From positions 57,161 to 121,160 of the forward strand of contig JAIYAX010000011.1 of NCBI GenBank assembly GCA_027488815.1: a stretch of 64,000 nt of DNA, read 5' to 3'. The stretch comes from Cytophagaceae bacterium. GTDB lineage: Bacteria > Bacteroidota > Bacteroidia > Cytophagales > JAIYAX01. Numbering within the stretch: the first letter of the stretch is position 1; every line of letters begins with the position of its first letter. Shown here piece after piece: positions 2,061 through 63,438 of this stretch. The position numbers and the translations under genes are program-made. The notes below the pieces were generated by a model. That model made no database searches, was not told where the DNA came from, and saw only the letters and a program-made list of their open reading frames with translations.

Positions 2061-3994
2061 TTTAAATTCATGATTTCGATTCCATCCCAGTCATTTGGAA
2101 AACCATTCTTAATCAATTCCCGACACCGATCCAGAAAACGATTTACTGCACCATCTTCACTGTTGATTTTCTGTATTTCAAGAAACATGGAAACAGCTTC
2201 TTCAAGCCTTCTGGATTTAAATAAGTGTACAGCTTCACCAAATTCTTTTTGATATGACTTCTTGATCTCATCGGCATCATGAAGTAACTCCACTATCTCA
2301 ATTTGCTTTCTCTTGCCTTTTACTTTCACCTCTCCCAAATACCGTGTCGTAAATTCAAGGGAGTTAGGTAAATGCTCCAAACAAGAAGTAGTAACAATAG
2401 TCGTGCAGTTGTAATGTCGGGTTAGACCTTCGACTCGGGAGGCCACATTCACAACATCTGATATCACTGTCGTATCCAGTCGCTCTTCATGACCTATGGT
2501 GCCTAAGATTAATTTGCCATAATGGATACCAATGCCAATTGAAATAGGCTCAGTGTTTGACGTTCGGTTATACTTCTCTATGGCTTTACTCATTTCAATA
2601 GCTGCTCGCATGGCTTGCAAAGGGCTTTGCGGGAACAATGCCATAATCGAATCACCTATATATTTATCTATAAAACCTCCATGTTGTTGAATAACAGGTA
2701 CAATTTCTTTCAAATAACGATTGAGGAAGTCGAAGTTTTCCTGGGGACTAAGTCCTTCAGATATTTCGGTAAATGAACGAATGTCGGTAAACATGACGGT
2801 CATGTCTCGCTCTGAATGGTCACCCAGATTCACCTCCTCTATTCCTTTCCTGTTCAAATAATGAACAAATTCATTAGGAACAAATCTGCTGTTGGCTTGA
2901 TTGATTTTTACTAATCGTTCATTCGCCATAGCTAATTCTTTGGTGCGTTCCTCTACTTTCTGCTTGAAGTACTTTAAAGTGCTGATAACCTCACTTTTGA
3001 GTAGTGTAAAGTTCTGGGTAAGCTTTCCTATTTCATCTTTTGAGCGAACAGATGGGCTTCCTTCTTCAACTGTGAAATTGCTGTCCACAAATCGGGTTAT
3101 GTATTCAGTAAGTTCTATCAATGGCTTTGTAATTTTTTTAGCCATCAGGAAGCTAATACCCAAACTCAGTAGTAGTAAAAATACTATGACCAATCCATAC
3201 GAAATTGTCATTTGCCGATACAATACAAGTTGATGTTTTTGAGTATCAACAATAAATGCTTCATACAAATTGGATAATTCTTTTACCCGGAGATCCAACT
3301 GCAGTTTTAAACCTGTGTTATCGTTTAAGCCTGTAACTCGGTCAAGTTCAACAATGCTGTTAAATGTTTTCAAATAAGATTGCAAGTAAAACCGGGTCGA
3401 GTCTTCATCTTGTATTGGCAAATCAGCGATTAGACTCCTGGCAAGAGAATTCAATTTCTCAACATATTGAATTTCATTTCTGATGATATAGTCCTTTTCG
3501 TGCCTTCTAAGCATGAGGAGGTAAGACTTATTTAACTTGCTCGTGTTCTCTAACCAATGAGCACGTTTGCGCATTTCACCTTCAAGGTTATTGTCTTTGT
3601 AACCTCGTTTTAAAACAAGCGCAGTTTCTACTTTGAACAGAGAATCAACTTCATGTAGTTTATTAAAAATCAATTCAGACGTTTCGGCATTCTTAACAAT
3701 TCCCTTGAATCTCATCTTGGCACTGATGTGCGAATAAAGCGAATCATACTCCTGCAAATTCCGGCTTGTTCCAGACACAAAGAAGTCTGGGTTTCGGGTG
3801 TCGTAATTGAAAAAACCCTGTTGCTTAGCTACAGCTTTAAGTAAAACTGTGTAGTTTTCATTGATATGATTGATTTCATCAGCAATTTCCTCTCTAGACT
3901 GCAAATAGCTTAGAGCAAGAATCAGAATGATGATGTTGAAGCAAATAAACACCAGGAACCAAAAAAGAAGCCGGTGTCTGAAGGTCGTGAACAT
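2057..3994 (-). CDS. Membrane adenylate cyclase, class III, with HAMP domain
   Basis: The 645-residue protein has a transmembrane helix at ~10-32, a long helical extracytoplasmic sensor region (~35-260), a second membrane helix (~264-285), a HAMP linker (~287-340), a coiled coil, and a class III nucleotide cyclase domain (~395-560). Both metal-binding aspartates are visible (FTDIRSFTE and DKYIGDSIM). The lysine in DKYIGD and the aspartate in VISDVVNVASR are the pattern linked to ATP rather than GTP. The last ~80 residues look helical, with a TPR-like segment. It probably makes cAMP in response to a periplasmic signal. It is the first gene of a two-gene unit with the transhydrogenase-like flavoprotein. 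A Crp/Fnr-family regulator lies in the same window, but whether it binds cAMP is not shown. Confidence 0.85.
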   Translation of the reverse strand: MFTTFRHRLLFWFLVFICFNIIILILALSYLQSREEIADEINHINENYTVLLKAVAKQQGFFNYDTRNPDFFVSGTSRNLQEYDSLYSHISAKMRFKGIVKNAETSELIFNKLHEVDSLFKVETALVLKRGYKDNNLEGEMRKRAHWLENTSKLNKSYLLMLRRHEKDYIIRNEIQYVEKLNSLARSLIADLPIQDEDSTRFYLQSYLKTFNSIVELDRVTGLNDNTGLKLQLDLRVKELSNLYEAFIVDTQKHQLVLYRQMTISYGLVIVFLLLLSLGISFLMAKKITKPLIELTEYITRFVDSNFTVEEGSPSVRSKDEIGKLTQNFTLLKSEVISTLKYFKQKVEERTKELAMANERLVKINQANSRFVPNEFVHYLNRKGIEEVNLGDHSERDMTVMFTDIRSFTEISEGLSPQENFDFLNRYLKEIVPVIQQHGGFIDKYIGDSIMALFPQSPLQAMRAAIEMSKAIEKYNRTSNTEPISIGIGIHYGKLILGTIGHEERLDTTVISDVVNVASRVEGLTRHYNCTTIVTTSCLEHLPNSLEFTTRYLGEVKVKGKRKQIEIVELLHDADEIKKSYQKEFGEAVHLFKSRRLEEAVSMFLEIQKINSEDGAVNRFLDRCRELIKNGFPNDWDGIEIMNLK

Positions 3995-42158: not shown

Positions 42159-43091
42159 TTACTTCACAACAAACTGCTGGCTACCGATATTGGCTCCTTC
42201 GCAGAAGATCTCAACCGTGTGTTTTCCTTTCTTGTAGTCGCTTCCTTTTTTGTAGACAAATTCAACGTTGGGCTTACGGTTGTCAAAAAGGATGTCCTGC
42301 TTGGCGGTGTAATACATGTCGTTTCCGTCGGAATTAAAAGTTCCGGCACCGGCTGCAAGGTCGTACAACACCGCACCATCCGGTTCCAATAGTCTGAAAT
42401 ACAAGGTCTTGGTCTCCATCTTGGCGACTTTGTTATCCCCAATGTTGAAGTTGATCTTCAGGCGATCCAGGTCTTTTCCTTTGAACTCGATTTGGGTTTT
42501 GCTTTTGTTAAGGCGCTCCTTATTGCTCTTGGTTAACGCTGCCAGTTTAAAATTCTCAGCCCTCAACACAGAAGCCATCTCGACCTTCTTGTCCAGCTCT
42601 TTCTTCTCGGTGGTCAGCTGATTTACAGACTCGGTCAGTTTTACTTTTTCCTGTTTCAGACCCTGATTTTCATTGTTAAGCTGCTCATTGGCTGCTTTGA
42701 GCTGAGCGATTTCCTCGTCTTTTTGGGTGAGCATAAGTTTCAAGGCTCCGATTTCCTCTACAAACTTCTTGTACTCAGCACGTGCACGACGGGCATCTCT
42801 CTGGTACTTGAGAGCAGTTTGTTCCAGTTCACGCATCTTTTCTCCCATGCGGGTGGTATCACCGCCCAGCTCTGCGATTTGCTGAATTTTCATCTGAAAC
42901 TCATTTTTCAGACTGTCAAACTCGGTCTTGAGGTCAACAATCTCAGCCTCCTTTTGTACGATGATGGTTTTTTGCTCTTTGTCTTTCATTGATCCCATGA
43001 TCCATAGTCCGGCGTTGATCAGGGCAAGCACGATGATCAGGATTATGAGCAGAAGTCTTGATCCTTTTTTGGGTTGTTCGGCAGTGTTCAT
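42159..43091 (-). CDS. Membrane-anchored coiled-coil protein
   Basis: A 310-residue protein with one N-terminal membrane helix (LLLIILIIVLALINAGLWIM) followed by a long coiled coil (~40-200: KEAEIVDLKTEFDSLKNEF, EEIAQLKAANEQLNNEN). A C-terminal beta-rich domain follows (KINFNIGDNKVAKMETKTLY to FCEGANIGSQQFVVK). It probably faces the periplasm. The C-terminal domain recalls Bacteroidota proteins of unknown function. It lies downstream of the 138-base repeats, which form its upstream region. Confidence 0.75.
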   Translation of the reverse strand: MNTAEQPKKGSRLLLIILIIVLALINAGLWIMGSMKDKEQKTIIVQKEAEIVDLKTEFDSLKNEFQMKIQQIAELGGDTTRMGEKMRELEQTALKYQRDARRARAEYKKFVEEIGALKLMLTQKDEEIAQLKAANEQLNNENQGLKQEKVKLTESVNQLTTEKKELDKKVEMASVLRAENFKLAALTKSNKERLNKSKTQIEFKGKDLDRLKINFNIGDNKVAKMETKTLYFRLLEPDGAVLYDLAAGAGTFNSDGNDMYYTAKQDILFDNRKPNVEFVYKKGSDYKKGKHTVEIFCEGANIGSQQFVVK

Positions 43092-43836
43092 AGGTTTGTT
43101 TTCGCTTTTGATACTGGTTTAAGTTGTGGAATTAATCCGCAAATATCATCATTATCATGAAATTAACGAATTTGTACTATTGGATAACCTGCGCATAGGC
43201 CTGGCAGATGGATGGGTTTGTTGGCATTTAGAGAGCTTTCCCTTTTTTGTTCGCCCAAAAAAGGGAGAAAAAAGGGCGCAAACAGTAGAACCAAGCTCTT
43301 TAAGTGGCTTTAGGGTTGTTAGTGGATAGCTGATGTTTTAGACTTGAAAACAAGTGATGTGTTTGAAGGAGGCTATTCCCTTTTTTGTTCGCCTAAAAAG
43401 GGAGAAAAAAGGGCACAAACAGAAGAACCAAGCTCTTTAAGTGGCTTTAGTGTAGTTAGTGGACAGCTTATGATTTAGACATGAAAACAAGTGATGTGTT
43501 TGAAGGAGGCTATTCCCTTTTTTGTTCGCCCAAAAAAGGGAGAAAAAAGGGCGCAAACAGCAAAGCCAACCTCCCCGCTAAACGCTCTTTGCCTATGCTT
43601 GCAAGTACAGTTTCCGGGTGTTGGGGTCAGATGGTGGGCATCAATTGCCATCAGTATTTCATTTCTTGGATTTATTCGTTTTCGCTCCTCCGGAACCTGT
43701 AAAACCCCGCCTCCCACAAGCCTCGGTTGGCCGCTCTGCTGTTTGATCCCAGCCCACAAATTCGACTTCAATGCAGTTCATTGTTTATGACCTATTTATA
43801 TTTCAATTGCAAGTCAATAGCGGCAATAAGAATGAA
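43092..43836. other. 745-base gene-free region
   Basis: This interval holds the 138-base tandem repeats (listed separately) and, from about 43561 to 43836, about 275 bases with no coding frame I trust. The listed ORFs here (43126, 43475, 43481, 43491) read repeat sequence and have no recognisable domain. No tRNA or insertion-sequence end is seen. Confidence 0.7.
43240..43560. repeat. Tandem 138-base repeat, 2.3 copies, with internal inverted repeats
   Basis: Copies start at 43240, 43378 and 43515, giving periods of 138 and 137 bases. The third is cut after its first ~46 bases. Each begins cccttttttgttcgcc, then caaaaaaggg, so the first 26 bases form a 10-base-pair hairpin. A further gaaaaaagggcgcaaac can pair with ttcgccc in an alternative stem. 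The spacer between copies 1 and 2 and between 2 and 3 shares aagctctttaagtggcttta and aaaacaagtgatgtgtttga, with a few changes. This looks like a dispersed structured intergenic element amplified locally. Confidence 0.85.
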
Positions 43837-45306
43837 TCACTCCACCACCAACTTATGCGTACTGCTCTCCTTGGCATTGGAAAATCTTAGGAGGTACAAG
43901 CCCTTGCTTAGGCGACTAAGGTCGATCATTTGCTGTGGCTCAGCAGTCAATATTCCGGTTTGCAGAGTTCGCCCTTGCAGGTCATGAATTTCATACTTGC
44001 CGGGACGGGAGTTTTGAAGGTAGGCATGCCCTTTGGCGGGGTTGGGGTAGATGGAAACACTAACCTCATGAATGCTTTCATCTGCAAATCCAACAGTTGT
44101 GTTCACTCCCCAAATCCTAGCAATTCCTGGTCTCCATATGTTGCCATATCGGCTAAATCTGCCTACAACAATTACCTTATTATCCGACTGTAAGGTTAAA
44201 TTTTCACCTGCTCCAATTGGCGTCATAAACACATTGAAAGTAGTATCTTTTTGACCATTGCTTTGGAGTAAGTACACAATCAAGGCAGAACCATTTAGCG
44301 TGGCTGGATTATCTCCGGTAATATAGACTCTTCCATCGCTTAACGGTAAAATTCCATAAACTCCAGGAAATGCACTGGTACTTGGATTGGAAAAAATCGA
44401 AAAAGTACTGTCTACAGTTCCATCTACATTTAATCTAACCAGCGTATTGGCTTTTATTCCATTATAGTTGTTAAACCAACCTCCAATCAATAATTTTTGG
44501 TCTGCCTGAAGACTACTTGCCCAAATCGTACCATTAGCTCCAAAGCTTATATAATAGGTACTATCCAAAATGCCATCAGAATTTAAGCGAATTGCGTGGT
44601 AATTATTTAAACCAAGACTCGGAAAACGACCTATCAGTATGATCTTTCCATTTGCCTGAATGGCAATATCGGATACAAATCCAAGTGAATCAACAAAATA
44701 AGAAAATGAACTGTCAAATTGTCCATTTTGATGTAACCTAAAAATACTTTTTATTACAACAGATGAAGAAACAATAATTGTTTGAGTTACTACGATCTTC
44801 CCGTCTGACTGTAACGCTGCTGAACTGACTTTATTTGAATTCAAAGCAGGTTGAAACGTCGTATCCAAGCTTCCATCGATATTAAATCTGATAATCCCCT
44901 TTCCCGGAAGCCCATTTACCTGCGTAATTGTACCTGCCAATAAGACTTTGCCATCCGGTTGAAGAATTAAATCACTAAAGGAATTACCACTAAATGTATT
45001 TTTTGAGTTAAAAACCGTGTCTGGAGTTCCATTTTCTTGTAATTGAATAAAGCAACATTTTGAGATTCCATTGTAGGTACCAAACTCACCAGCAACCAAA
45101 ATTTTTCCATTTGGGCGAGTAGCGACAAGGTTAACATAGCTATTAGAATTAAAACCAGCTCCAATAGGGTATTGATTGATGTTTGATAATATGCTGTGCG
45201 CAAAACCAAAATTGAAAGTGGTGTCTAACTCACCTGGTTGGCTGAATTGAGCTCTTGATTCTATCCAAAGAATTAAAATCAAGCTGAAGATAAATAGTCT
45301 TTTCAT
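43837..45306 (-). CDS. Delta-60 repeat protein with T9SS sorting domain, short form
   Basis: A 489-residue secreted protein. A signal peptide (RLFIFSLILILWIESRAQ) is followed by FSQPGELDTTFNFG and then seven delta-60 repeats of ~50-57 residues, each with a core such as LQPDGKVLLAGTITQVNG. The C-terminal ~75 residues are a type IX sorting domain with SIYPNPAKG and SKGLYLLRFSNAKES followed by HKLVVE. Seven such repeats would close a seven-bladed beta-propeller. The protein shares its N-terminus (FSQPGELDTTFNFG) with the 1528-residue paralogue at 58852. Ligand or enzyme activity is unknown. It probably sits on the cell surface. Confidence 0.88.
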   Translation of the reverse strand: MKRLFIFSLILILWIESRAQFSQPGELDTTFNFGFAHSILSNINQYPIGAGFNSNSYVNLVATRPNGKILVAGEFGTYNGISKCCFIQLQENGTPDTVFNSKNTFSGNSFSDLILQPDGKVLLAGTITQVNGLPGKGIIRFNIDGSLDTTFQPALNSNKVSSAALQSDGKIVVTQTIIVSSSVVIKSIFRLHQNGQFDSSFSYFVDSLGFVSDIAIQANGKIILIGRFPSLGLNNYHAIRLNSDGILDSTYYISFGANGTIWASSLQADQKLLIGGWFNNYNGIKANTLVRLNVDGTVDSTFSIFSNPSTSAFPGVYGILPLSDGRVYITGDNPATLNGSALIVYLLQSNGQKDTTFNVFMTPIGAGENLTLQSDNKVIVVGRFSRYGNIWRPGIARIWGVNTTVGFADESIHEVSVSIYPNPAKGHAYLQNSRPGKYEIHDLQGRTLQTGILTAEPQQMIDLSRLSKGLYLLRFSNAKESSTHKLVVE

Positions 45307-58851: not shown

Positions 58852-61800
58852 CTACTCCTTCACTACTTTGCGCACATAGGTTTGGCCCTTGAGGGTGATT
58901 TTCACAAGGTACATTCCGCTGGCCAGGTCATTCGTGAAGCAACTGGCTTCACTTGCCTCACTAAGGCCAGATAAGTGCACTACTCCCCTCAAATCCATGA
59001 TTTGATAATTGAACGGGCTTTGGGCTGTGATCCTTAGTTCGTTTTGGAAAGGTATTGGGAATACTGACCAATCAGTTAATGAATTTGCTGAACTGGTCTC
59101 CAAGCCCGTTACGATAAAGTTAATCGCATTTGAAATGCCAATGCAGCCCTGTGGACTGGTTACTCTTAAGGTGTATAACCCTGATTGGGTAGGTAAAAAA
59201 TTCAAACTCGTAGCTCCAGTCACAATCGCTCCATTAAGTAACCACTGGTAACTACCTGGAAGTGAATTTGCTTTCAACGTGTCTCCAACCTGCAGAATGT
59301 TGACAATAGGCAAGGAATTGACCAAAACCGTGACGGAAGTTCTCGTGCTGCTTTCACAACCTGCTACACTGACAGAAGCGACATGGTAGGTAGTGGTGGT
59401 GGTTAGTGATGGAGTGATATAGCTCGCTACTCCATTACCTCCAGCCAAAGGACTGCCTCCCGTGCTGGCTGCATAGAAGCGGTAGTTCGCTCCGCCTGCC
59501 GTTGGGGTAATGGTGGCGGTAGTACCTGAACAGATCGCTGCCGGAGCAGGGGCTGTGGGAGCAGAAGGTAGCGGATTGACAGTTACCGTCACCGCTGTTC
59601 TCGTGCTGCTTTCACAACCTGCTACACTTACCGAAGCTACATGATAAGTGGTGTTGGTTGTCAAGGTTGGTGTGGTATAGCTCGCTATTCCATTACCTCC
59701 TGTTAATGGACTGCCTCCCGTGCTGGCTGCATAGAAGCGGTAGTTCGCTCCGCCTCCAGTTGGGGTAATGGTGGCGGTAGTACCTGAACAGATCGCTGCC
59801 GGAGCAGGGGCTGTGGGAGCAGAAGGTAGCGGGTTGACTGTTACCGTTACGGCTGTTCTCGTGCTGCTCTCACAACCTGCTGCACTTACCGAGGCGACAT
59901 GATAGGTCGTAGTGCTGCTGAGGGTTGGGGTGGTAAAGCTAGCTACACCATTCCCTCCTGCCAAAGGACTGCCACCTGTGGAGGCTGCATAGAAACGGTA
60001 GTTAGCTCCGCCTGCCGAAGGGGTTATTGCTGCTGTGTTTCCTGCACAAATGGCAGCTTGAGCTGAAACTGTGGGTGCAGAAGGGAGTGGGTTCACTGTC
60101 ACCGTAACCACTGTACGTGTATTGCTCTCACAACCTGCTGAATTTACCGAGGCCACGTGGTAGAATGTGTTACTACTCAAAGTGGATGTGGTAAAGCTGG
60201 CCACTCCATTGCCGCCTGCCAGAGGACTTCCCCCTGAGGAAGCCGCATAGAAGCGGTAGTTCACTCCGCCTGCCGAAGGGGTGATTGTTGCTGTGTTTCC
60301 TGAACAAATGGCAGCAGGAGTTGAAACGGTGGGTGCCAAGGGTAACTGGTTGACCATTACAGTTACCGAGGTACGAGTGCTGCTTTCACAGCCTGCTGAA
60401 TTTACTGAGGCCACGTGATAGATGGTGGTGCTGCTCAAAATGGGTGTGGTAAAGCTGGCCACTCCATTGCCTCCTGCCAGAGGACTGCCTCCTGTAGAAG
60501 CCACATAAAAGCGGTAATTCGCACCACCTGCTGTAGGGGTGATTGTAGCTGTATTCCCTGCACAAATTGGGGCGGGAGCCGGAACTATGGGGGCAGGAGG
60601 TAACGGATTGACAGTTACTGTTATAGTAGTTCTCGTGCTACTCTCACAGCCTTGAGCACTTACTGAGGCCACATGATAGGTGGTGGTGCTGCTCAAAGTG
60701 GGTGTGGTAAAGCTGGCCACTCCATTGCCTCCTGCCAGAGGACTGCCTCCTGTAGAAGCCACATAAAAGCGGTAATTCGCACCACCTGCTGTAGGGGTGA
60801 TTGTAGCTGTATTCCCAGTACAAATAGCTGACGGGGTCGGAGTTGTGGGGGCTGAAGGCAAGGGATTGACAGTTACAGTAACAGAAGTTCTGGTGTTACT
60901 CTCGCATCCTTGCGCAGACACAGAGGCTATGTGGAATGTAGTGGTATTTGGGAGTATAGGTGTTATAAAGCTGCTAACAAGATTACCCCCAGGTAATGGA
61001 TTTCCCCCTGTAGAAGTTGCGTAGAAGCGATAGTTCACTCCCCCTGAAATAGGGGTGATCGTGTTAGAAGTTCCTGCACAAATAGCTGCCAAAGCCTGTA
61101 CTGTAGGGGCTAAAGGTAAGGTTAAGCATTCTGGAGAAAATATACGAGCAATCCGGCTTCGAGATGTGCCATCGAAATTTAAGAAATCTCCACTGATAAC
61201 CAACTTATTATCAGGTTGAAGGGCAAGGGAATTAACAATACTACTCGCCCCTAAGCTGGGACCAAAAGTAATATCTAAGCTGCCATCTGAATTAAGACGA
61301 GCTATCCGATTACTTGAAGTACCATTGTAGCTTGTGAATTCCCCACCTATGAGCACCTTGTTGTCTTGTTGAATAGTTAATGTCCAGACAGTACCATTCG
61401 CCCCTGTTCCTGGGTTGAACGTTGAATCAAGGCTTCCATCAGCATTTAAACGTACAATTCGGTTGCGGGGAATACCATTATAACTACTGAATTGTCCCCC
61501 TATGAGTATCTTTCCATTAGGTTGAAGAGAAAGATTTCTCACAACTGGAGAAATTGGACCATCAATACCTGTACCAGGATTAAAGGTGGCATCTAGAGTC
61601 CCATTTACATTTAGGCGACAAACAGAGTTGCGAGCTGTGCCATTATAGCTAGTGAAATCACCCCCAATGAGTACTTTCCCATCGGACTGGAGTAAAAGCG
61701 AATAGATAACTGGAGAATTTGGCCCATTTACCCCTGTTCCAGGGTTGAATGTGACATCTAGGCTTCCATCTGAATTCAAGCAAGCTACATGATTGCGGAT

Positions 61801-63438
61801 AGTTCCGTTATAGCTGGTGAACCAACCCCCGACAAGTACTTTTCCATCTGGTCGAAGAGCAAATGACCAGACTATGCTATTTGCCCCTGTTCCCGGGTTG
61901 AAGGTTGAGTCAATAGTGCCATCCGCATTCAATCTTGCGATACGGTTTCGAGAAATGCCATTAAAACTTGTAAAATTTCCTCCAATAAGTACTTTACCAT
62001 CAGGTTGAAGGGCCATAGAAAAAATCGTATTGTTTACTCCTATGCCAGAGTCAAACGTAGAATCTAAGCTGCCGTCCATATTCAGTCGAGCGATACGGTT
62101 ACGGAATTTGCCATTGGCAAAACTAAATTCACCTCCTATTAATACCATGCCATTTGGTTGACGAATAAGGGCAAAAATCCTACCGCTCGCTCCAGAGCTG
62201 GGATTGAATGTTTCATCAATATCACCATTCGAATTTAGGCGTGCAAATCGATTGCTTGAATTGTCATTATAACTTGTAAAATTACCTCCAATAAAGACCT
62301 TACCATCGGGTTGCAAAGTGAGGGAATAAATAAAAGGAAATGATACCCCACCAATACCCGTATTGGAGTAGAAGCTGCTATCTAAGCTACCATCTGAGTT
62401 CAAACGGGTGAGACATTTTTTAGGAATATTATTATAACTAAGGAATTCACCTCCAATTATTATTTTGTTATCAGGCTGAAGAGCCAGAGTCCTTATAATA
62501 CCGTCCGCCCCTATACCAGGGTCGAATGTTAAGTCTAGGCTTCCATCAGCATTCAATCGGGCTATCCGATTACGTGGGGTGCCATTATAATTGCTAAAAA
62601 AGCCTAAAACAAGCATTTTACCATCAGGTTGTAACACTATAGATTCAACTATTCCGTTAGCCCCATTTCCTATATTAAACGTGGTATCTAGACTACCATT
62701 GAGGTTCAATCGGGCTAAACTATTTCGTGTGACACCGTTGTACCTTGTAAAATCTCCACCAATGAGAATTTTACCATTTGATTGAAGCGCAATACATCTG
62801 ACCACATCATTTGCTCCTGAGTCAGGATTAAATGATAAATCAATGCTGCCATCCGGATTAATTCTAGCAGTTCGAATGCGTGATGTGCCATTGTAACTTG
62901 TGAAATTGCCTACTATAAGTACCTTCCCATCGGATTGAATAGCGATAGAGTTGACTGAGTTATTTACACCGATAGAGGTATTGAATGTGGCATCTAAACT
63001 ACCATTTGCATTCAAGCGAGCTATTCTGTTTGAGGGAGAACCATTATAACTATTGAAAAAACCCCCAATTAAAACCTTGCCATCAGGTTGAAGGGCAAGA
63101 GAATTTACCCAATTATTTGCACCTATGCCTGGGTTGAAGGTGTCGTCTAGGCTACCATTTGGGTTAAGACGTGCAATTCGATTTCGTGCTTTACCATTGT
63201 AAAAAGTGAAATCTCCTCCGATCAATACCTTGCCGTCAGTTTGACGAACTGATACATTGATTTCAAAATTCGCACCTTCACCGGGCACAGGGTTCGCAGG
63301 ATCAGTAAAGAAACTATGGGGTCTTCCGAAATTAAAAGTAGTATCCAACTCCCCCGGCTGGGAGAATTGGGCTTGGGCGGTAAAGCACAACAAGATGCAA
63401 TGGCTGAGCAGGATGAATAAAGTTTGGGGTTTCATCAT
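58852..63438 (-). CDS. Giant T9SS surface protein: 14 delta-60 repeats and 7 Ig-like repeats
   Basis: A 1528-residue protein with a signal peptide (LFILLSHCILLCFTAQAQ) and the paralogue N-terminus FSQPGELDTTFNFG. Fourteen delta-60 repeats (core LQPDGKVLIGGNFTSYNG) fill residues ~50-775, about twice the number in the short paralogue at 43837. Seven 86-residue Ig-like units follow, each with two cysteines (ICSG and GCES). A last module without a second copy precedes the sorting domain (SVFPIPFQNELRI to YVRKVVKE). It should be exported by type IX secretion to the cell surface, where it may act in adhesion. No enzyme motif is seen. Confidence 0.9.
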   Translation of the reverse strand: MMKPQTLFILLSHCILLCFTAQAQFSQPGELDTTFNFGRPHSFFTDPANPVPGEGANFEINVSVRQTDGKVLIGGDFTFYNGKARNRIARLNPNGSLDDTFNPGIGANNWVNSLALQPDGKVLIGGFFNSYNGSPSNRIARLNANGSLDATFNTSIGVNNSVNSIAIQSDGKVLIVGNFTSYNGTSRIRTARINPDGSIDLSFNPDSGANDVVRCIALQSNGKILIGGDFTRYNGVTRNSLARLNLNGSLDTTFNIGNGANGIVESIVLQPDGKMLVLGFFSNYNGTPRNRIARLNADGSLDLTFDPGIGADGIIRTLALQPDNKIIIGGEFLSYNNIPKKCLTRLNSDGSLDSSFYSNTGIGGVSFPFIYSLTLQPDGKVFIGGNFTSYNDNSSNRFARLNSNGDIDETFNPSSGASGRIFALIRQPNGMVLIGGEFSFANGKFRNRIARLNMDGSLDSTFDSGIGVNNTIFSMALQPDGKVLIGGNFTSFNGISRNRIARLNADGTIDSTFNPGTGANSIVWSFALRPDGKVLVGGWFTSYNGTIRNHVACLNSDGSLDVTFNPGTGVNGPNSPVIYSLLLQSDGKVLIGGDFTSYNGTARNSVCRLNVNGTLDATFNPGTGIDGPISPVVRNLSLQPNGKILIGGQFSSYNGIPRNRIVRLNADGSLDSTFNPGTGANGTVWTLTIQQDNKVLIGGEFTSYNGTSSNRIARLNSDGSLDITFGPSLGASSIVNSLALQPDNKLVISGDFLNFDGTSRSRIARIFSPECLTLPLAPTVQALAAICAGTSNTITPISGGVNYRFYATSTGGNPLPGGNLVSSFITPILPNTTTFHIASVSAQGCESNTRTSVTVTVNPLPSAPTTPTPSAICTGNTATITPTAGGANYRFYVASTGGSPLAGGNGVASFTTPTLSSTTTYHVASVSAQGCESSTRTTITVTVNPLPPAPIVPAPAPICAGNTATITPTAGGANYRFYVASTGGSPLAGGNGVASFTTPILSSTTIYHVASVNSAGCESSTRTSVTVMVNQLPLAPTVSTPAAICSGNTATITPSAGGVNYRFYAASSGGSPLAGGNGVASFTTSTLSSNTFYHVASVNSAGCESNTRTVVTVTVNPLPSAPTVSAQAAICAGNTAAITPSAGGANYRFYAASTGGSPLAGGNGVASFTTPTLSSTTTYHVASVSAAGCESSTRTAVTVTVNPLPSAPTAPAPAAICSGTTATITPTGGGANYRFYAASTGGSPLTGGNGIASYTTPTLTTNTTYHVASVSVAGCESSTRTAVTVTVNPLPSAPTAPAPAAICSGTTATITPTAGGANYRFYAASTGGSPLAGGNGVASYITPSLTTTTTYHVASVSVAGCESSTRTSVTVLVNSLPIVNILQVGDTLKANSLPGSYQWLLNGAIVTGATSLNFLPTQSGLYTLRVTSPQGCIGISNAINFIVTGLETSSANSLTDWSVFPIPFQNELRITAQSPFNYQIMDLRGVVHLSGLSEASEASCFTNDLASGMYLVKITLKGQTYVRKVVKE
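59010..59205. repeat. 196-base block shared with the edge paralogue (copy 1)
   Basis: Bases 59010-59205 and 63805-64000 match at 193 of 196 positions, without gaps (I count three substitutions). The block encodes the module just before the sorting domain of both surface proteins. The flanking ~158 bases toward the stop match far less well. Confidence 0.92.
59340..61133 (-). repeat. Seven 86-codon tandem Ig-like repeats
   Basis: Within the large surface protein, seven units of 258 bases (86 residues) repeat from residue ~768 to ~1367. Marker blocks such as GGANYRFYAASTGGSPLAGG and AGCESSTRT followed by TVNPLPSAPT recur at fixed spacing. The two units nearest the C-terminus are almost identical in DNA (for example gcatagaagcggtagttcgc at 59470s and again 258 bases on), while the N-terminal unit is more divergent. 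This shows recent expansion at one end. Confidence 0.9.

Follow-up and report, generated by a model that had tools for sequence, protein, structure and literature searches.

Organization of the tandem array

The window, i.e. the whole stretch of DNA analyzed here, comprises 64,000 nucleotides of a Cytophagaceae bacterium genome (contig JAIYAX010000011.1). It contains an intergenic tandem array between two minus-strand genes. One of them (42159-43091) encodes a coiled-coil protein with an N-terminal membrane segment and a sub-threshold DUF7491 match, and the array lies in its upstream region, as stated in the original prediction, at a distance of about 147 nt. The other (43837-45306) encodes a DUF5122 beta-propeller protein with a Por_Secre_tail domain (type IX secretion tail), and the array is situated beyond its 3' end. 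The predicted repeat of about 138 bases was recovered by Tandem Repeats Finder at 43238-43560 of the plus strand (period 137, 2.3 copies, 93% matches), with head-to-tail copies starting at 43238, 43375 and 43513 and hence spaced by 137 and then 138 nucleotides. The ORFs reading through the array gave no Pfam match, in line with the earlier view that they are not credible genes. A second tandem array, in which a 258-bp unit is repeated about six times, can be observed at 59339-61016 of the window, inside a single minus-strand ORF (58852-63438, 1528 aa) that probably encodes a repeat-domain surface protein.

Copies 1 and 3 share, letter for letter, the core TTCCCTTTTTTGTTCGCCCAAAAAAGGGAGAAAAAAGGGCGCAAACAG, from which copy 2 has diverged. 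This core is composed of an 11-bp hairpin (S1) with the six-base loop TTCGCC, a short A-rich linker and the strand GGGCG, which is complementary to CGCCC, a stretch made up of the last loop bases and the base next to the loop. In copy 1, S1 (TCCCTTTTTTG, loop TTCGCC, CAAAAAAGGGA) spans 43239-43266 and matches the covariance model with 57.6 bits, the window copies being part of that model. Its predicted pseudoknot or competing stem, which is backed by covariation in the family, joins CGCCC (43252-43256) to GGGCG (43274-43278) across an A-run, and the energy model prefers pairing of the first strand with the third over S1. In copy 3, S1 (43514-43541) is likewise 11 bp long, and the corresponding knot stem, with the same family covariation, joins CGCCC (43527-43531) to GGGCG (43549-43553). 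A further stem, P2, follows the knot strand. In copy 3 it is a long-range arm formed by CAAACAGCA (43554-43562) and TGCTGTTTG (43737-43745; p=0.02), and since copy 3 carries this arm of its own, the whole feature extends to about 43745. In copies 1 and 2, P2 amounts to only 6 bp and is weak alone (p=0.21 in each), pairing CAAACA with TGTTTG at 43279-43284 and 43360-43365 in copy 1 and at 43416-43421 and 43497-43502 in copy 2. The middle copy appears to be decaying: its S1 (43377-43403; 41.1 bits) is down to 9 bp, and its second stem is broken (CGCCT/GGGCA), the knot strand GGGCA at 43411-43415 mismatching the loop.

The original prediction of two full and one partial copies was thus correct as to three units, the third of which, having its own arm, is more than a partial copy. 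The opening hairpin exists as well, with 11 bp (copies 1 and 3) or 9 bp (copy 2) in place of the proposed 10, and the competing cgccc/gggcg stem holds for copies 1 and 3 and fails in copy 2. Two hairpins of at least 11 bp are present in the real intergenic region, whereas only one of 200 dinucleotide shuffles contained any. A perfect 9-bp inverted repeat, CGAATTTGT at 43167-43175 and ACAAATTCG at 43756-43764, may mark the outer ends of the feature or may be due to chance.

A terminator scan of the array of cores found no terminator. The sole hit of the scan (43630-43652) falls within the copy 3 arm and is matched by what shuffled sequences yield. Moreover, there is no T-run after the S1 hairpin on either strand, the plus strand being A-rich there instead. 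The genes on either side are most likely little affected by the array.

Conservation of the predicted fold

In the alignment of 49 cores, 95.9% of the S1 cells are standard pairs. Double-change cells numbered 54 vs 14.8 in shuffled alignments, the covariation score was 0.295 vs 0.092, and shifted controls collapsed. G-U pairs in S1 numbered 2 when read on the plus strand vs 8 on the minus strand.

The pairing of the loop with the downstream strand was analyzed at positions that the search pattern does not jointly fix. As the linker is variable and MAFFT therefore sets the knot strand out of register, a script was used to count knot pairs from the anatomy of each core. The loop pyrimidine (Y, T or C) tracks the downstream purine (R): C was found with G in 9/10 and T with G in 1/45 lineage-distinct types (Fisher p=1.5e-8). 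Additionally, a T at the loop position N accompanies an A in the downstream strand (p=4.4e-5). Both loop versions occur together, each with its matching partner, in the Nitrospirota genome JdFR-86 and in genome G227. At the level of sequence, this covariation supports a pseudoknot or a stem that would alternate with S1. The two intact window copies agree with the family in all these elements, having S1 with its T-run and A-run, an NTYGNC loop, and the family knot pairing YGNCC/GGNCR in the form CGCCC/GGGCG.

A covariance model without fixed core letters revealed, in two other genomes of the order, copies whose mid-stem T-A pair is replaced by C-G or A-T, in the forms CTTTTCTTTTG/CAAAAGAAAAG and CTTTTATTTTG/CAAAATAAAAG. 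Mid-stem variant copies with CTTGTCC/GGACA are found alongside copies with CTTGCCC/GGGCA. In these two genomes (G004 and G054, loci L322-L337) the copies are dispersed, with CTTTTATTTTG or CTTTTCTTTTG in S1, and an enlarged-loop subfamily, TCATTGCCA, is also present. The A-rich third strand mostly repeats the 3' strand of S1 (A6 or A5, AAAGAAAA). One form has the third strand CAAAACAAAAG beside CAAAATAAAAG, so that strict copying of the S1 3' strand is not required.

P2 was tested in 47 entries (one per lineage and the three window copies), of which 33, copy 3 of the window among them, were positive at p<=0.05 with about 2 expected. It is located directly after the knot strand and is typically 9-10 bp long; its sequence differs in almost every lineage, and its loops range from 8 to 174 nt. 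The compensatory changes inside single genomes, together with the recurrence of the fold across at least seven phyla, point to selection on the structure itself.

Distribution of the family

The 22-nt core CTTTTTTGYTYGCCCAAAAAAG was found in 96 exact stretches among 84,980 species genomes, distributed over six phyla. The carriers in the Bacteroidota include Xanthocytophaga, Taibaiella, Chitinophaga MAGs, Agriterribacter, Ferruginibacter, Segetibacter and Rikenella; those in the Bacillota are two Oscillospiraceae and one Phascolarctobacterium; the others are two Nitrospirota, one Latescibacterota, one Ignavibacteriales and one gammaproteobacterial MAG. About 0.1 exact matches would be expected by chance, an estimate that assumes equal base frequencies and is raised by the T and A runs, for which reason we prefer the reversed-pattern control on a class sample. 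In that sample, 13/395 genomes were positive within one mismatch, and the reversed pattern gave one match. Two viral contigs also contain the core.

A sister form, CTTTTCTTTG, referred to here as the proteobacterial form, is present in Aeromonas, Burkholderia and Pseudoalteromonas, and the megaplasmid of Ilyobacter (Fusobacteriota) has six dispersed, near-identical copies as CTTTCTTTG. These four genera are represented by named isolates and do not belong to the Bacteroidota; among the remaining records there are several MAGs, which could be mis-binned. The core and the sister form together cover at least seven phyla. The sister-form consensus had no match in 50,697 phage records. Tandem arrays were also observed in Taibaiella (spacing about 187-199 nt) and in two other sampled genomes.

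The 3.37-Mb genome of the window contains no second site according to BLAST, a pattern search with three mismatches and the covariance model, apart from one doubtful relic at C1:86305-86341, which was detected by BLAST and the pattern search and not by the covariance model. The many dispersed copies anticipated for this genome therefore did not appear; three were found, all at one place. The relatives used for comparison were 58 other genomes, all from other families of the same order.

Genomic context of the copies

Most copies are intergenic and lie beside unrelated genes. The adjacent genes include no recurrent family, and no autonomous partner was found among them. Among the 57 copies with both neighbours known, 6 are in divergent and 18 in convergent gene pairs, and their orientation relative to tandem genes is even (17 to 16).

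In Xanthocytophaga, the core is embedded in gene-free elements of 335-434 bp with inverted ends CATGAGTCATCCCGAAT, which were seen in this genus only. Each of the two Xanthocytophaga genomes (G039 and G023; e.g. L245-L291) has about 80-95 matches to this inverted end, and none of the matches listed formed inverted-end pairs at gene-size spacing. At two orthologous sites the element is present in one Xanthocytophaga species and absent in the other. Both element-free sites hold a short hairpin, and one keeps the outer CATG ends; an internal deletion or a replacement, rather than a simple insertion, is possible there. Target duplications, which had been suggested as a check on mobility, were not observed: none of at least 4 bp was found around 32 Xanthocytophaga copies. 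Palindromic extension of the flanks, as would result from insertion into hairpins, is weak, with 20/500 shuffles equally high.

Rearranged copies were also noted. In X. flavus (L158, core 3464-3485, minus strand), the left half runs on into its own reverse complement, which identifies this copy as a fold-back deletion product with the core at its centre. A unit between two CAAAAAAG repeats has been lost independently at four loci (L045, L073, L103 at 2484-2505, and L120), and this loss fuses the S1 3' strand with the knot strand (CAAAAAAGGGC). At three Taibaiella loci (L102, L103 and L166), mutually similar ORFs of 110-207 aa are made of the tandem repeats and are likely spurious calls.

Comparison with known repeats

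No family of Rfam 15 matched above the gathering threshold or at loose thresholds; one Burkholderia locus matched an sRNA family, mainly upstream of the core. The family is thus absent from Rfam 15, and the tripled array is an unusual member of a group of folded intergenic repeats that crosses phyla. Among the open-licence papers searched by sequence string and topic, there was no relevant one on the core or the sister form. An earlier description of the proteobacterial form by others may exist.

ERIC is a folded intergenic repeat of about 130 bp without a gene, and in these respects it resembles the units described here. Unlike ERIC, the family spans many phyla, and the sister-form core consensus was missing from all 5,426 E. 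coli genomes searched. The Xanthocytophaga elements are similar to MITEs in being gene-free, in having terminal inverted repeats and in the two orthologous sites lacking the element, each with its short hairpin. They differ from MITEs in that no target duplication was seen and no autonomous partner was found; moreover, the inverted ends are not conserved between genera, whereas the internal fold is conserved across phyla. At the array in the window, the 9-bp inverted repeat is the sole candidate for such ends.

REP sequences, including BIMEs and REPINs with their RAYTs, are likewise short palindromic extragenic repeats with a gene-end bias and local arrays. REP super-families are defined by a GTAG or CGTC tag left unpaired at one palindrome end (PMC3733652), whereas the S1 flanks read GCTT and GAAAA; the family also has no linked RAYT, and its unit is larger and includes both a knot strand and a distinct stem of variable sequence. 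The R-family repeats of P. fluorescens are intergenic and prefer tail-to-tail gene pairs, as do the copies studied here, but by their published description they are strain- or species-specific (PMC2718517).

Interpretation of the array

We interpret the array as three copies of a non-autonomous, structure-conserved mobile interspersed repeat of the REP/ERIC/MITE kind, whose fold would serve as a recognition signal, and assign to this reading a probability of about 0.6. It was the option of the original prediction that fared best, owing to dispersal, intergenic placement beside unrelated genes, inverted ends in one genus, and the two sites without the element in that genus. Each copy would consist of the S1 hairpin and P2. 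The S1 loop would pair with a strand lying immediately 3' of the hairpin, beyond an A-rich linker resembling the S1 3' strand, and P2, which comes next, is free in sequence and loop length. Copies would be moved in trans by a putative enzyme that reads the folded single strand. The array itself may go back to one insertion in this genome that unequal recombination or replication slippage then amplified in place, its middle copy now decaying. Counting against mobility are the lack of any transposase found, the absence of target duplication, the hairpins in place of clean joins, the single site in the genome of the window, and a knotted fold whose conservation across phyla would also fit a functional RNA.

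The main rival is a dispersed functional RNA, such as a small RNA or 3'-UTR element, whose pseudoknot core and P2 would work at the transcript level and whose dispersal would be a secondary matter. The retention of fold rather than sequence across phyla speaks for it, as does a core that stays intact while the outer sequence diverges, and the cores of copies 1 and 3 have remained identical. We nevertheless judge it considerably less probable than a mobile repeat, because the copies show no sense or antisense preference relative to their neighbours, Rfam has no such family, and no promoter-like site turned up in a sigma-70 scan, whose model leaves out the promoters of Bacteroidota. A terminating or mRNA-stabilising cassette at gene ends, also raised by the original prediction, would account for the favoured gene ends, the depletion of divergent pairs and the short terminator-like hairpin that replaces the element at the two orthologous Xanthocytophaga sites. 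Such a position bias is expected of any tolerated insertion, however, and with the negative terminator scan of the cores and an A-rich plus strand after S1, with no T-run on the minus strand, this explanation appears improbable, and its terminator version was not borne out for this array.

Mobilisation as a REP by a RAYT (Y1/HUH) transposase could be considered given the short, intergenic, arrayed palindromes and the Y1_Tnp genes in the genome of the window. The link was rejected: the two Xanthocytophaga genomes, the richest carriers, have no Y1_Tnp match, the core was not found in the loci around the Y1_Tnp genes of 14 genomes, and no GTAG or CGTC tag lies beside S1, so that we hold this origin to be very unlikely. 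Least credible of all is a purely local duplication of a chance hairpin; the single genomic site would suit it, but a family present in other phyla has matching core letters, loop motif, knot partner and arm, and the 13/395 positive class genomes and the 96 exact core stretches contradict it.

Beyond the mobile repeat as such, it is a tentative and rather doubtful suggestion that the family forms an uncatalogued cross-phylum class of elements that combine a conserved three-strand fold (the hairpin and knot, the third strand being A-rich) with a second stem free to vary, and that would be moved between unrelated bacteria by a folded-single-strand mechanism without target duplication. Short folded repeats are usually bound to a genus or family, whereas the fold described here is recognisable in at least seven phyla. 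Such a range suggests that a mobilising or host factor, or else an RNA, is itself widespread, and the covariation yields an exact prediction, namely that a swap in the loop would need the matching swap in its partner strand.
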